Part shown: positions 2,175 to 49,832 of the stretch, in pieces
How the letters are laid out: each line of letters begins with the position of its first letter
How positions within the stretch are numbered: the stretch's first letter is position 1
From: Gemmatimonadaceae bacterium
Lineage (GTDB): Bacteria; Gemmatimonadota; Gemmatimonadetes; Gemmatimonadales; Gemmatimonadaceae
Assembly (NCBI GenBank): GCA_036003045.1
Contig: DASYSS010000057.1
Coordinates: 62,001-126,000 of the forward strand
Direction: 5' to 3'
DNA length: 64,000 nucleotides
Position numbers and translations under genes: made by a program
Notes under the pieces: generated by a model
The model's database searches: none
What the model was told of the DNA's origin: nothing
What the model saw: the letters and a program-made list of their open reading frames with translations, nothing else

Positions 2175-4598
2175 ATGCAATCGCTGCTTCGCGACGTCCG
2201 CTACGGCCTTCGATCGCTGTTGAAAGCTCCGGGTCTCACCGCCGTCGCCGTCCTCGCGCTGACGCTCGGCATCGGGCTCACGACGACGATGTTCAGCATC
2301 GTGTACGGCGCAATGCTCAGAGGGCTGCCGTACGCCGAGGGCGACCGCATCGTCACCCTTCGCCGGGAAAACCCGGCGCGCGGAATCAACCAGTCGGGAA
2401 TCTCGCTGCTCGATTTCGGCGACTACAAGGCGCAACAGCGGTCGTTCTCCGAGCTTGCGGCCGTGACGTCGGGGACGATCTTCGTGAGCGGCGACGAGAA
2501 AGCCGAGCGTTTCGACGGCGCCTGGATAACGTCCAACACGTTGTCGATGACCGGCGTGAAGCCGATTCTTGGACGGCACTTTCGCGCCGGCGAGGATACG
2601 CCGCAGGGCGAGAAGGTGGCGATTCTGGCGTACCGCATGTGGCACGACCGCTACGCGTCGGACGCGAACGTCATCGGACGCATCATCCGCGTGAACGGCG
2701 TGCCGACGACCGTGGTCGGCGTGATGCCCGAGCGGTTCGAGTTCCCGGAGAACGACCAGATCTGGCTCCCGATGCAAACGGATCCGAACGCGACCGATCG
2801 CGAACACAGCCCGCAGTACGAGGTCTTCGCAAAGCTGAAGCCGGGGGTGTCCCTCGATCAGGCAAACGTCGAGGTGGCGACGATCGCCAAGCGGCTTGCG
2901 GCCGCCTATCCGCAGGCCGACGAGGGATTCACGACCACCGCGCGAAACTTCATCGACAGCTACATCGGCAAAGAGCCGCGCCAACTGCTCTGGACGATGC
3001 TCGCGGCGGTCTTCTTCGTGCTGCTCATCGCGTGCGCCAACGTGGCGAATCTTTTGCTCGACCGCGCGGCGCATCGCACGAAAGAAGTCGGCGTGCGCAC
3101 CGCGCTCGGCGCTTCGCGCGGCGCCGTCGTCCGCCAGTTCCTGGCCGAGTCGCTGGTGCTGTCGCTGGCGGCCACCGGTTTCGGCGTCGCCGTCGCGTAT
3201 TTCGGCGTGGACGGATTCAACCGAGCCCTCGCCGCGACGACGCAGGTGCCATCCTTCATCGACATCCGTCTGCATCCGCAGGTCCTGCTGTTCACGATCG
3301 GCGTCGCGGCGCTCACGACGCTCGCCGCCGGCGCCATCCCGGCCTATCAATCGTCGCGCGCGGACATCAACGAGATCCTCAAGGACGATTCCCGCGGCGC
3401 ATCGAGCTTCCGCATCGGCCGCATCAGCAAAGGGCTCGTGATTTTCGAGATCGCGCTGTCGTGCGGGCTGCTCGTCGCCGCGGGCCTCATGATCAAGAGC
3501 GTCGCGCAGTTGCGGAATCTCGATCCCGGGTTCACGACGAAGGACGTGCTGACCGCTCGCGTCGGCTTCCCCGCCGCCTACACCGACACGATCGCGCAGT
3601 GGCGCTTCTTCGACGACGTGCAGCAAAGAGTCGCGGCGTTGCCGGGCGTCGTCTCCGCCTCGGTGAGCTCGGGACTTCCGGCCACGAGACAGGGCTTTGG
3701 AGGCGCGACGTTCGGCCTCGAGGGACAGAGCTACCTCAAAGACAAGGATTATCCGAACGCGCGTTGGTTGTCGGTGACACCCGACTTCTTCAACACGGTG
3801 AAGGCGCCGGTCCTCGACGGCCGCGCGTTCACGATCAGCGACCGCCCCGGCGAGCTTCCTGTTGCGATCGTCAATCGCGAGTTCGTCTCGAAGTTCTTCA
3901 AGAACCAGAGCCCGATCGGCAAACGCATTCGCATCGGAAACTCGACCAGCAAGCAGCCGTGGCTCACCGTCGTGGGTGTCGTCGGCAACATGTTCACCGG
4001 CGACAACGAGCGCCCGATCGTGCCGGCGATCTACCAACCGTTCGCTCAGTCGCGCCAGAATTTCGCCTGGATCTCGCTGCGCACGTCGGGCCCACCGACG
4101 TCGCTCGCCCCGTCGCTCCGCCAAACCGTTGCGTCGGTCAACCCGGACATTCCGCTCTATTGGGTGGACACGTACGAGCACCAGATCGCGCAGCAAGTAT
4201 GGTTCGTCCGCGTGTTCGGGACGATGTTCATGATCTTCGGGTTCGTCGCGCTCTTCCTGGCGTCGGTCGGCCTGTACGCGGTGATGTCGTTCTCGGTGAG
4301 CCGCAGAATCCGCGAAGTCGGTATCCGCATGGCCCTCGGCGCGCGCGCGCGCGACGTCGTGCGCATGATCTTCCGCCAAGGCCTCGTCCAGCTCGTCGTC
4401 GGCATGTCGCTCGGCCTGCTGTTCGCGACCGGGATGGGCCAGCTGCTCAAGGCCATTCTCTTCCAGGTTCAGCCGCGCGACCCGTCGATCTTCGTGGGTG
4501 TCGCGGTCGTGCTGACCCTGGTCGGCTTGATCGCGTGTCTGGTCCCCGCGCTACGCGCGACGCGGGTGGACCCGCTCGTCGCGTTGCGAAGCGAGTAG
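2175..4598 (+). CDS. ADOP-type (MacB/FtsX-like) ABC transporter permease
   Basis: This 807-residue membrane protein has two MacB periplasmic-core/FtsX repeats: an N-terminal helix (about residues 20-45), a periplasmic domain, an FtsX helical bundle (about 270-400), a second periplasmic domain (about 440-640) and a C-terminal FtsX bundle (about 680-800). The opening segment (LLRDVRYGLRSLLKAPG) is characteristic of the duplicated orphan permeases (ADOP) that are abundant in Acidobacteriota and Gemmatimonadota. They are thought to export substrates or move lipoproteins, with an ATPase encoded elsewhere; none is beside this gene. The ATG at 2175 is a good start. The tRNA-Asn unit begins 10 bases after its stop. 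Confidence 0.92.
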   Translation: MQSLLRDVRYGLRSLLKAPGLTAVAVLALTLGIGLTTTMFSIVYGAMLRGLPYAEGDRIVTLRRENPARGINQSGISLLDFGDYKAQQRSFSELAAVTSGTIFVSGDEKAERFDGAWITSNTLSMTGVKPILGRHFRAGEDTPQGEKVAILAYRMWHDRYASDANVIGRIIRVNGVPTTVVGVMPERFEFPENDQIWLPMQTDPNATDREHSPQYEVFAKLKPGVSLDQANVEVATIAKRLAAAYPQADEGFTTTARNFIDSYIGKEPRQLLWTMLAAVFFVLLIACANVANLLLDRAAHRTKEVGVRTALGASRGAVVRQFLAESLVLSLAATGFGVAVAYFGVDGFNRALAATTQVPSFIDIRLHPQVLLFTIGVAALTTLAAGAIPAYQSSRADINEILKDDSRGASSFRIGRISKGLVIFEIALSCGLLVAAGLMIKSVAQLRNLDPGFTTKDVLTARVGFPAAYTDTIAQWRFFDDVQQRVAALPGVVSASVSSGLPATRQGFGGATFGLEGQSYLKDKDYPNARWLSVTPDFFNTVKAPVLDGRAFTISDRPGELPVAIVNREFVSKFFKNQSPIGKRIRIGNSTSKQPWLTVVGVVGNMFTGDNERPIVPAIYQPFAQSRQNFAWISLRTSGPPTSLAPSLRQTVASVNPDIPLYWVDTYEHQIAQQVWFVRVFGTMFMIFGFVALFLASVGLYAVMSFSVSRRIREVGIRMALGARARDVVRMIFRQGLVQLVVGMSLGLLFATGMGQLLKAILFQVQPRDPSIFVGVAVVLTLVGLIACLVPALRATRVDPLVALRSE

Positions 4599-4608
4599 CA
4601 CGATGGCG

Positions 4609-4637
4609 TTGACCGCGCGTGCGACGGTATCTAGCTT
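4609..4637 (+). promoter_or_regulatory. Predicted sigma-70 promoter of the tRNA-Asn leader transcript
   Basis: A TTGACC -35 element (4609-4614) is separated by 17 bases from a TAGCTT -10 element of the TANNNT type (4632-4637). The expected +1 falls at 4644-4645, on or next to the A of the leader ORF start codon, so the message would be leaderless. The 100 bases between the attenuator and the tRNA contain no TA dinucleotide, so they cannot hold a TANNNT -10 box. This makes the present promoter the best source of tRNA-Asn transcription. Confidence 0.6.
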
Positions 4638-4644
4638 GCTTCGC

Positions 4645-4710
4645 ATGGCAAACGGCGCACTGAACCGCAATCGCTCCAATAATCGGAACTCCAACCGGAA
4701 CTCTGGTTAG
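4645..4710 (+). CDS. Asn-rich 21-residue leader peptide upstream of tRNA-Asn
   Basis: An ATG 7 bases after a TANNNT box opens a 21-codon ORF ending in TAG at 4708-4710. Eight codons are Asn (positions 3, 7, 9, 12, 13, 15, 17, 19), four Arg (8, 10, 14, 18) and three Ser (11, 16, 20). Such a run of one codon type immediately before a rho-independent terminator is the hallmark of ribosome-mediated attenuation leaders (his, trp, leu, phe type). The amino acid matches the anticodon of the tRNA gene that follows. The ORF is too short to be a functional enzyme and no Shine-Dalgarno sequence is visible, which fits leaderless initiation. The product is presumably a disposable sensor of charged Asn-tRNA. 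Confidence 0.75.
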   Translation: MANGALNRNRSNNRNSNRNSG

Positions 4711-4771
4711 GGCGCACTCGGCTGTTCAGTGATCGAGAGGCCCGCCAGAAGTCGACATGGCGGGCCTTTTC
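4693..4771 (+). promoter_or_regulatory. Asn-codon attenuator with mutually exclusive hairpins
   Basis: Three pairings compete. A pause hairpin joins AACCGG (4693-4698) to CTGGTT (4703-4708), covering the last Asn codons and the stop. An antiterminator joins TCTGG (4702-4706) plus GGGC (4710-4713) to GCCC (4740-4743) plus CCAGA (4745-4749), nine pairs around a small internal loop. The terminator uses 4738-4747 with 4758-4767. The antiterminator and terminator share 4740-4747, so they cannot coexist. A ribosome stalled on the Asn codons would block the pause hairpin and favour the antiterminator, giving readthrough into tRNA-Asn. Pairings were worked out by eye; the mechanism is inferred by analogy with the trp and his leaders. 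Confidence 0.7.
4738..4771 (+). terminator. Rho-independent terminator of the attenuator
   Basis: A perfect 10-base-pair stem (AGGCCCGCCA with TGGCGGGCCT) closes a 10-base loop and runs into TTTC. It lies 28 bases after the leader stop codon and 100 bases before tRNA-Asn. Confidence 0.85.
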
Positions 4772-4871
4772 GTTGAGGTGGCAGTCTGTGGAAAGATGTG
4801 ACGTTGGAAGCCTCGGCGAGTCTGGACGATCGACAGGGTGGTGTTCGCCGCAAGACGTCAGTTGTCGTCGA

Positions 4872-4944
4872 TGGGGCGTAGGTCAATTGGCAGACCGTCT
4901 GACTGTTAATCAGAAAGTTGGTGGTTCGAGTCCACCCGCCCCAG
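4872..4944 (+). tRNA. tRNA-Asn (anticodon GUU)
   Basis: The 73-base sequence folds into a full cloverleaf: acceptor TGGGGCG with CGCCCCA, D stem GGTC/GACC, anticodon stem TCTGA/TCAGA with loop CTGTTAA (anticodon GTT at 4905-4907), five-base variable loop, T stem GGTGG/CCACC with a TTCGAGT loop, and discriminator G at 4944. No CCA is encoded. It is the only gene between two terminators and is preceded by an Asn-rich leader ORF. Confidence 0.98.
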
Positions 4945-4978
4945 TCAATAGAACATTTTTTGGATGGCACGGTTTGAG

Positions 4979-5015
4979 ACTGCCCGCTGACCCAATCGGC
5001 GGGCAGTTTGTTGTT
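4979..5015 (+). terminator. Terminator of the tRNA-Asn transcript
   Basis: A perfect 9-base-pair stem (ACTGCCCGC with GCGGGCAGT) with an 11-base loop is followed by a T-rich tail (TTGTTGTTTCTTC). It starts 35 bases after the tRNA and closes the unit before the next protein gene. Confidence 0.9.
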
Positions 5016-48297: not shown

Positions 48298-48753
48298 CTA
48301 TCCGAGAGAAGCCGCACCCACCCCCGCATCAATTCCCGCCTGCACTTCGGCCAGCACGGCGCGCATCGCCTCGTTCGAGATCGGTTTGACGATGTGACGG
48401 TCGAACCCCGCCGAGCGCGCGCGCTCGACGATGTCTTCCGAGTCCCAACCGGTGAGCGCGATGAGGTACGTGCCACGCGTGGACGACATCGAGCGCAGCT
48501 TTCTCGCGACCGCGAAGCCGTCGAGCAAGGGCAACGACAGATCGATGAGGGCCACGTCCGGCAGAAAGTCCACCGCTGACGAGACGGCCTCGATGCCGCT
48601 CAACGCGGCGCGAACCTGGTATCCTTGCGTCCGCAGCAAGCGTCCCACGCTCACCACGGATTCGACGTGGTCGTCGACGAGCAGCACGCGGAGTCCGCTG
48701 CTCGCGGCTTGCGGCGTCGTGGAATTGTTGGTAGTCGATGCGTCGTCGTTCAT
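48298..48753 (-). CDS. Single-domain response regulator (receiver only)
   Basis: This 151-residue protein has one receiver domain (VDD at 26-28, phosphorylated Asp71, Lys in HIVKPIS) and no output domain. Such proteins pass phosphate on or bind a partner directly. It overlaps the CobW-like gene by ATGA and lies 11 bases before FGE, so it is made together with the maturase. Confidence 0.9.
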   Translation of the reverse strand: MNDDASTTNNSTTPQAASSGLRVLLVDDHVESVVSVGRLLRTQGYQVRAALSGIEAVSSAVDFLPDVALIDLSLPLLDGFAVARKLRSMSSTRGTYLIALTGWDSEDIVERARSAGFDRHIVKPISNEAMRAVLAEVQAGIDAGVGAASLG

Positions 48754-49832
48754 GCGACATCTCCGAGATCCGGCGCTCTAGGTACATCGGCGATCCGTTC
48801 CGCCCTCGAGGCCGGCCGCTGCGCCCGACTGACCATCCCCGCTCCCGCCGCTGCACTGCCGCTGCCTTCGCCGGCGAGCAACAGCCGCGTCGCCGGCGTT
48901 TCATCACCCCATAACGATCCTCGGTCGAGCCGCCAGCGCCGTCCGAGAAAATGAAAGACGTGGCGATGCTGCGGCTCGTCGCGGAGGTATACCGTGCCGT
49001 GTCCGCTCATGACGCGGCCGGTGAGCCGCTGCGCCCACGTGCGAAACTCCCGGCCGTCGATCGGCGCGTCGGCGACGAGACACCACGCGCAATGGTTCTC
49101 GCACGTCCGTGTTCGCGCCGGCCGCGAATTCTGCGGCAGATAGTCGGGCCGCCACTCGGCGAGCACAGCGCGCGCATCGAGCGCCGACGGGTCGGCGGAC
49201 AATCCGAGGAGCAACGGCGGGGCGATGCGCCCATGATCCGACCACACGACGCGCGTGGCCGGCGCCAGCCGCTCGAGCGTGCGCTGTGCCGAGGCGGCGC
49301 GCTCGGCGTCGATGAGGTCGACCTTGTTGAGCAGGACGACGTTCGCGATGGTGGCCTGCTCCTGCAGGTGCGACTCGTCGGTCCCGTCCATGTCGTTCAG
49401 CGCGGGGTTCGACGCATCGACGATCAACACCGCGCCGTTGAGTGAATACCCCGGCATGTAGCCGTATCCCGTCATGCGCCGCAGGTCGGCGAACCCCGCG
49501 CGATCAATGACGACGTGATCGGGCCGGTCGCGCGACGCGCCGAGCGCGGCGAGCGCCGCCGTGCCGTCGTCGTCAGCGCGCACGTATGTGCATCCGTTGT
49601 TGAGCACGACTCTCGGGCCGTCGGAGTCGGCGACGAGCGATGCGTCGATCTCGACGCTCTCTCCCACGATCGCGGCCGTGCGTCGGCCCGCGGTGTGCTC
49701 GAGAAGGTGTCGCACGAGCGACGTCTTCCCCGTACCCGGAGCGCCCCCGACGATGGTCAGGGGAATGTTCTCACGGTGACCAAGAGAAGAACGCGCGCTC
49801 TGCATCTGCGCCTCGGTGAGATCGGGTTGCAT
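48750..49832 (-). CDS. CobW-like (COG0523) GTPase lacking the CxCC motif
   Basis: The 360-residue protein has a P-loop GGAPGTGKTS (29-38), LLNKVDLID (GTP specificity) and a C-terminal CobW domain with GHGTVYLRDEP. The usual zinc-binding GCxCC motif is here NNGCTYVR, with only one Cys (Cys81). COG0523 proteins load metal into client enzymes. Placed in an operon with the metal-dependent FGE, this one could serve it, but the missing cysteines argue for another ligand set. A GTG at 49847 is an alternative start. Confidence 0.83.
   Translation of the reverse strand: MQPDLTEAQMQSARSSLGHRENIPLTIVGGAPGTGKTSLVRHLLEHTAGRRTAAIVGESVEIDASLVADSDGPRVVLNNGCTYVRADDDGTAALAALGASRDRPDHVVIDRAGFADLRRMTGYGYMPGYSLNGAVLIVDASNPALNDMDGTDESHLQEQATIANVVLLNKVDLIDAERAASAQRTLERLAPATRVVWSDHGRIAPPLLLGLSADPSALDARAVLAEWRPDYLPQNSRPARTRTCENHCAWCLVADAPIDGREFRTWAQRLTGRVMSGHGTVYLRDEPQHRHVFHFLGRRWRLDRGSLWGDETPATRLLLAGEGSGSAAAGAGMVSRAQRPASRAERIADVPRAPDLGDVA

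Follow-up and report, generated by a model that had tools for sequence, protein, structure and literature searches.

A likely Asn-codon leader-peptide attenuator of an accessory tRNA-Asn gene in Gemmatimonadota

Ribosome-mediated attenuators control the enterobacterial trp, his, thr, ilv, leu and pheST operons, and leader-peptide attenuation is textbook material, both in biosynthetic operons and in an operon for a tRNA synthetase. T-box leaders of Firmicutes control genes for aminoacyl-tRNA synthetases and for tRNA-dependent transamidation. Leaderless transcripts and leader peptides of amino acid genes have been discussed for Corynebacterium and Streptomyces (PMC8079986; PMC3890552); the leaderless leader peptides of these bacteria are not known to have targets other than protein genes. 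Here we describe a locus in a 64 kb stretch of DNA (hereafter, the window), which belongs to a genome of 5.4 Mb in 106 contigs. At this locus, a ribosome-mediated transcription attenuator of the classical type very likely has a tRNA-Asn gene as its target. This conclusion rests on comparative sequence evidence; ribosome stalling and read-through are inferred, and there are no expression data.

An initial annotation of the locus had listed a promoter, a 21-codon ORF with eight Asn codons, a terminator, a nine-pair antiterminator, tRNA-Asn(GUU) and a second terminator, and all of these held at the positions it had given. All lie on the forward (+) strand. Downstream of a MacB/FtsX-type permease gene that ends at 4598, there is a sigma-70-type promoter (4609..4637), with a -35 element TTGACC (4609-4614), a 17-nt spacer and a -10 element TAGCTT (4632-4637). 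The ATG of the leader-peptide ORF (4645..4710; MANGALNRNRSNNRNSNRNSG followed by the stop codon), which is probably leaderless, lies 7 nt 3' of the -10 element. Transcription had been proposed to start at this very ATG; the promoter held, whereas the start site itself remains an inference. The eight Asn codons among the 21 are, in order, AAC AAC AAT AAT AAT AAC AAC AAC. This is the highest Asn content among the 828 small ORFs of the 64 kb, the next unrelated ORF having 3/16. When 4599-4871 was shuffled 5000 times with dinucleotides preserved, such an ORF never had more than five Asn codons.

Three RNA segments and a terminator follow from the ORF onwards. Segment 1 (UAAUCGGA, 4680..4687), identified in the minimum-energy fold, spans Asn codons 12-13 plus the following two codons. 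Segment 2 (UCUGGUUAGGGC, 4702..4713) is the 5' side of the antiterminator and overlaps the stop codon, and segment 3 (GCCCGCCAGA, 4740..4749), its 3' side, lies within the 5' arm and loop of the terminator. The attenuator is an intrinsic terminator (GAGAGGCCCGCCA/TGGCGGGCCTTTT, 4735..4770) with a 13-bp stem (arms 4735-4747/4758-4770), a 10-nt loop and a T-run. The nine antiterminator pairs are formed by UCUGG 4702-4706 with CCAGA 4745-4749 and by GGGC 4710-4713 with GCCC 4740-4743. In addition, an 8-bp protector hairpin is predicted between 4680-4687 and 4702-4709 (UAAUCGGA/UCUGGUUA), which goes beyond what the initial annotation had stated. The predicted fold of the full-length leader RNA consists of the protector and the terminator; the antiterminator becomes the predicted fold when segment 1 or the first codons are masked and the 3' arm of the terminator has not yet been made. 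The tRNA-Asn(GUU) gene (4872..4944, UGGGGCG...CCCCAG), of the accessory type II defined below, was identified with ARAGORN and scores 70.5 bits with the Rfam tRNA model; it forms a cloverleaf with a GUU anticodon, is above the family cut-off, and carries U1-A72, G2-C71, G10 and G73. A second terminator-like hairpin (4979..5011; ACTGCCCGC/GCGGGCAGT, then the T-run TTGTTGTTT) marks the putative end of the tRNA transcript.

In the proposed mechanism, RNA polymerase would start at the ATG of the leaderless Asn-rich ORF. With no ribosome on the leader, or with a ribosome that finishes the ORF, segment 3 would stay free and the terminator at 4735-4770 would form, so that transcription yields nothing beyond a short leader RNA; a segment 1 not covered by a ribosome would pair with segment 2 as the protector hairpin. 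A shortage of charged tRNA-Asn would cause the ribosome to stall at the Asn codons, exposing segment 2, which lies at the stop codon; its pairing with segment 3 would block the terminator, allowing the polymerase to enter the tRNA-Asn gene and to end at the second terminator. The product would be an accessory type II tRNA-Asn, additional to a constitutive housekeeping tRNA-Asn. The start site, the stalling and the read-through are all inferred from sequence alone, without transcript, Term-seq or ribosome-profiling data.

Relatives were found via a sequence pattern for the 5' half of the window tRNA. Gemmatimonadota MAGs account for 66/67 of the named relatives; the remaining one is labelled Chloroflexi, but its leader belongs to the same group. 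The leader-bearing genomes with named records are all MAGs. All loci were oriented on their tRNA-Asn. Of the 83 distinct upstream regions in Gemmatimonadota, 45 contain an Asn-rich ORF (~16-30 codons), then a terminator and then tRNA-Asn; the ORF is retained at 44 loci besides the window. The 45 were counted by hand from tables and include L132, which is truncated at a contig end, and L005/L095, in which the stop codon is now TCG. In the latter (G001:C12), an otherwise typical leader has TCG in place of TAG and the frame continues into the terminator, either by sequencing error or by decay.

The leaders form two main groups, g1 and g2, with little nucleotide similarity between them. The g1 peptides are MTNRANNSNNRNNRGCSPTTG-like, mostly with an NRNSxRRSG end before the stop codon, and the g2 peptides are MLTFAVLGSNRNRSLNSNSGGRAA-like up to the stop; single leaders outside these groups are L023, L031, L077, L027 and L130, with two from another family. 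Across the 43 intact leaders, AAY triplets are distributed over frames 0, 1 and 2 as 197:3:1; therefore, translation of the Asn codons is the selected feature. Both Asn synonyms are used, with AAT enriched compared to the CDS of the window (116/197 vs 15/61, p 4e-6). The promoters that precede the ORF in the relatives have a TTGAC- or TTGC-type -35 element, a 17/18-nt spacer and a TANNNT-type -10 element. Given that the start codon is located 5-9 nt beyond the -10 element in 36/43 leaders, the leader RNA is likely to be leaderless, with the start codon at or near +1 and without a Shine-Dalgarno sequence, although this, too, is inferred from sequence alone.

The switch itself is supported by covariation. 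In the g1 alignment of 25 sequences, 92.4% of the terminator cells are paired and two-sided changes occur in 5/9 pairs. The g1 antiterminator joins UCUGGC before the stop codon to GCCAGA in the 5' arm and loop of the terminator; 91.9% of its cells are paired, compared to at most 52% when slid, with two-sided changes in 5/6 pairs, and its covariation score was reached by none of 500 shuffles. Alignment columns 185-187 are common to both helices, and segment 2 lies at the stop codon throughout the g1 set. Among the antiterminator variants are UCUGGU/ACCAGA (L081), CUGAC/GUCAG (L111), GCCGGC/GCCGGC (L015) and CCCGGC/GCCGGG (L127). The g2 leaders usually have a CCGGGGGC-like sequence ahead of the stop codon, complementary to the terminator 5' arm GCCCCCGG; no covariation of the antiterminator was detected in this group because the terminator side is nearly invariant. 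The protector hairpin is pairable in 74.7% of the cells in relatives, against at most 52.8% when slid, and shows no covariation among them. Shuffling of a single 40-nt segment gave only a weak test of the antiterminator per locus (7/41 below 0.05; combined p 5e-5) since GC-rich segments pair by chance. The question of the antiterminator is settled by the alignment-based covariation.

Thus, the proposal of an Asn-codon attenuator over tRNA-Asn is supported by the relatives (45/83 loci, frame-specific Asn selection, covariation of both stems). Lack of conservation of the Asn codons or of both stems had been named beforehand as the result that would refute it, and the idea survived this test.

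The simplest objection is that the parts are unrelated neighbours, i.e., that the terminator ends the permease transcript, the ORF encodes an ordinary small protein or arose by chance, and a separate promoter serves the tRNA. The window alone would allow this, with the permease gene ending just upstream and 101 nt between the terminator and the tRNA. However, the leader unit is kept behind many different upstream genes, with the promoter positioned after that gene and before the ORF. Moreover, in 11 loci (L015, L105, L023, L111, L077, L103, L129, L119, L074, L088 and L031) the end of the terminator stem is only 9-17 nt from the tRNA; a gap of at most 17 nt leaves no room for a promoter and, therefore, the tRNA can be reached only by read-through. 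In the window, the distance is about 100 nt (100 or 101), and the claim that this gap lacks a TA step held: there is none in the 100 nt of 4772-4871. Together with the covariation of the two stems, these observations make the coincidence of unrelated neighbours very unlikely.

A second alternative is an attenuator that senses the tRNA directly or responds to a protein, in the manner of a T-box or an anti-terminator protein, with the ORF incidental. Its genetic output would be the same, a terminator before the gene, and three type II loci (L008, L086, L089) have a promoter-proximal terminator and no Asn ORF. Nevertheless, a sensor that is not translated does not explain the limitation of AAY to one frame, segment 2 is found at the stop codon throughout g1, and no match to the T-box or another Rfam regulatory family was found at the leader at either the gathering or a relaxed threshold. 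We consider this alternative, likewise, very unlikely. In L008, L086 and L089, the promoter is TTGACA-17-TAAGCT, and a terminator-like hairpin (CCCGCGG..CCGNGGG, with a T-run) lies within ~10 nt of the expected +1 and ~30-100 nt upstream of the type II tRNA-Asn; conceivably, these loci have a different attenuator of the same tRNA-Asn.

Returning to the ribosome-mediated attenuator, a census of the window genome and 58 relatives (59 genomes) defines its target. The window genome has two tRNA-Asn(GUU) genes, a canonical one (UCCCCGAUAGCUCAG..., G000:C40), which has no leader, and that of the window (UGGGGCGUAGGUCAAUUGGC...). The initial annotation had considered the tRNA as the leader's only mature product and had missed the leaderless canonical tRNA-Asn elsewhere in the genome. 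Housekeeping, type I tRNA-Asn (UCC.., C2-G71) is present in nearly every genome of the census, none of which has a leader-terminator unit before it. Type II tRNA-Asn (UGGGG.., U1-A72, G2-C71), whole or partial, occurs in 34 of the 50 genomes that are at least 90% complete; the leader is present in 11 of these 34 and in 13/59 genomes overall. About half of the type II genes have no leader and, therefore, the attenuation control is not essential to the type II tRNA. The leader-controlled gene is a dispensable, divergent second tRNA-Asn, not the sole supply of tRNA-Asn. Both types have the same anticodon loop. An origin of type II by remoulding of tRNA-Gln was rejected, as it is not close to the tRNA-Gln of the genome. 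No comparable cognate-rich leader with a terminator precedes the other tRNAs of the window genome (44 examined). ARAGORN also calls a tRNA-Arg in the window (48674-48767, anticodon GCG, 94 nt) that lacks Rfam support and is probably a false call.

A covariance model built from the end of the g1 leader plus the terminator matches before type II tRNA-Asn, with one clear exception in G034. This site (L268:1722-1995; G034:C25 ~68220-68500) is a g1-type UCUGGUUGA...GCCCGCCAGA switch, which scores 46 bits to model R1. It precedes a class I/II aminotransferase gene; a TTGACA promoter is present, but an Asn-rich ORF is not. The attenuator module might serve further amino acids, although this is no more than a possibility. 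Weak matches in G017, G051, G045:C19 and G046 were set aside as resembling ordinary terminators or unrelated sequence.

Two further observations pertain to the type II genes. In several leaderless ones (L009/L087 of G005, L073, L121 and L134), promoter-like sequence is directly followed by the T-rich GTGTTTTGTTTG; these could be deletion derivatives in which the promoter is fused to the old T-run. Furthermore, partial type II 3' halves near the gene, or an interrupted tRNA 3' end, were seen at L201, L219 (G023), L232-L234 (G032) and L015/L212 (G018). The recurring 3' halves would fit integrative elements that use the tRNA gene as an attachment site, which remains a tentative reading. A search of viral contigs with the permease upstream of the window's promoter gave no match.

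What the regulation is for can only be inferred. Inducing a tRNA gene in response to uncharged tRNA increases the charged pool only where the tRNA, rather than asparagine, is limiting, or where Asn is synthesized on the tRNA. Under the same attenuation mechanism, the purpose could be tRNA supply, with type II a reserve for when Asn codons are decoded slowly, a reading that in our judgement might as easily be right as wrong. Conceivable triggers would be a low level of the housekeeping tRNA, rapid growth, or an anticodon nuclease that damages tRNA. In its favor, type II is dispensable and stands beside the constitutive type I, the AsnRS and AsnB homologues of the window genome imply that Asn need not be made on the tRNA, and the bacterial AsnRS determinants (anticodon, G73) are present in type II. 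Against it, a nuclease reading the anticodon loop would cut both types, given their identical loops, and additional uncharged tRNA would be useless if Asn itself limits.

The other purpose is Asn biosynthesis, whereby type II would be the preferred substrate of AspRS and GatCAB, regulated in the manner of a biosynthetic operon; on the present evidence we are inclined to doubt it. U1-A72, found in every type II, is a GatCAB determinant (PMC9976931), and G2-C71 is an identity pair of E. coli tRNA-Asp (PMC6523644); G2 is present in all sampled tRNA-Asp and C2 in all type I tRNA-Asn. The window genome encodes AsnRS, GlnRS, GatB and two AsnB homologues and lacks AsnA. GatB thus occurs alongside GlnRS, as in Bdellovibrio, where AsnRS, GlnRS, one AspRS and GatCAB together can give a tRNA route to Asn (PMC4206432). 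Three near-complete leader-bearing genomes (G006, G011, G041) have GatB and no AsnA or AsnB over the cut-offs, and type II is absent from all of the near-complete genomes in which GatB does not exceed the cut-off (4/4, p 0.008). However, two of these four also lack GlnRS, possibly through an assembly gap, and the remaining 2/2 is not significant; AsnB homologues are above the cut-off in the window genome; the association of the leader with absence of AsnB reaches only p 0.06; and G2-C71 is a GlnRS determinant as well. Also against this purpose, non-discriminating AspRS reportedly carry His at a position that is Leu in the AspRS of the window genome. Both AsnB homologues, however, are grouped with exopolysaccharide-type genes, so it is uncertain whether they are true asparagine synthetases. 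The leader shows no correlation with the presence of GlnRS (p 0.74), and no Asn-rich leaders were found upstream of asnS in the window genome and two relatives, or upstream of its own asnB homologues.

The initial annotation had reasoned that tRNA-Asn would itself be a biosynthetic substrate if Asn is made on the tRNA by GatCAB, and had named asnS, asnA/asnB and gatCAB as the genes to look for. This rationale held in part: with AsnRS, GlnRS, GatB and AsnB homologues all present, it is possible and not established, and it gains some support from the G2-C71 and U1-A72 pairs of the controlled tRNA and from the leader-bearing relatives that lack AsnA and AsnB over the cut-offs. A bolder version, in which type II is a dedicated AspRS/GatCAB substrate, separate from the constitutive tRNA-Asn charged by AsnRS and induced by stalling at Asn codons, can be entertained only as a possibility. 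Under either purpose, the cells of these soil bacteria apparently make more type II tRNA-Asn when charged tRNA-Asn runs short; we regard this as likely, by inference, there being no data on the starvation response.

If so, a conserved attenuator that yields the very tRNA whose charging it senses would make tRNA supply a closed feedback loop and show that codon regulation can act on a single tRNA gene; it would also mean that the phylum maintains two differently controlled tRNA-Asn species that share an anticodon. That no leader attenuation of a tRNA gene is known had been suspected, and the open literature searched, a limited coverage that leaves out most subscription papers, contained no earlier case of a tRNA gene controlled by a leader peptide.

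Compared to the described systems, the locus meets the class features of a trp/his-type attenuator, namely in-frame selection of Asn codons, an intrinsic terminator before the gene, and an exclusive, covarying antiterminator near the stop codon; the protector hairpin stands apart, being predicted in the window and pairable in relatives but without covariation. It shares with the trp, his, thr, ilv, leu and pheST attenuators a leader ORF rich in cognate codons, a stop codon at segment 2, mutually exclusive 2:3/3:4 pairings, with a 1:2 pairing that is only predicted here, and an intrinsic terminator, and differs from them in that the product is a tRNA, not an enzyme, that the amino acid is asparagine, and that the leader is probably leaderless, without a Shine-Dalgarno sequence. 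With T-box leaders it has in common that shortage of charged tRNA acts through the choice between terminator and antiterminator; unlike these, it has no Rfam T-box match and would sense through a translated ORF. Thus, the class of attenuation itself is known, and the novelty lies in the tRNA gene as the target and in the two-tRNA arrangement, which makes a division between translation and on-tRNA asparagine synthesis directly testable.
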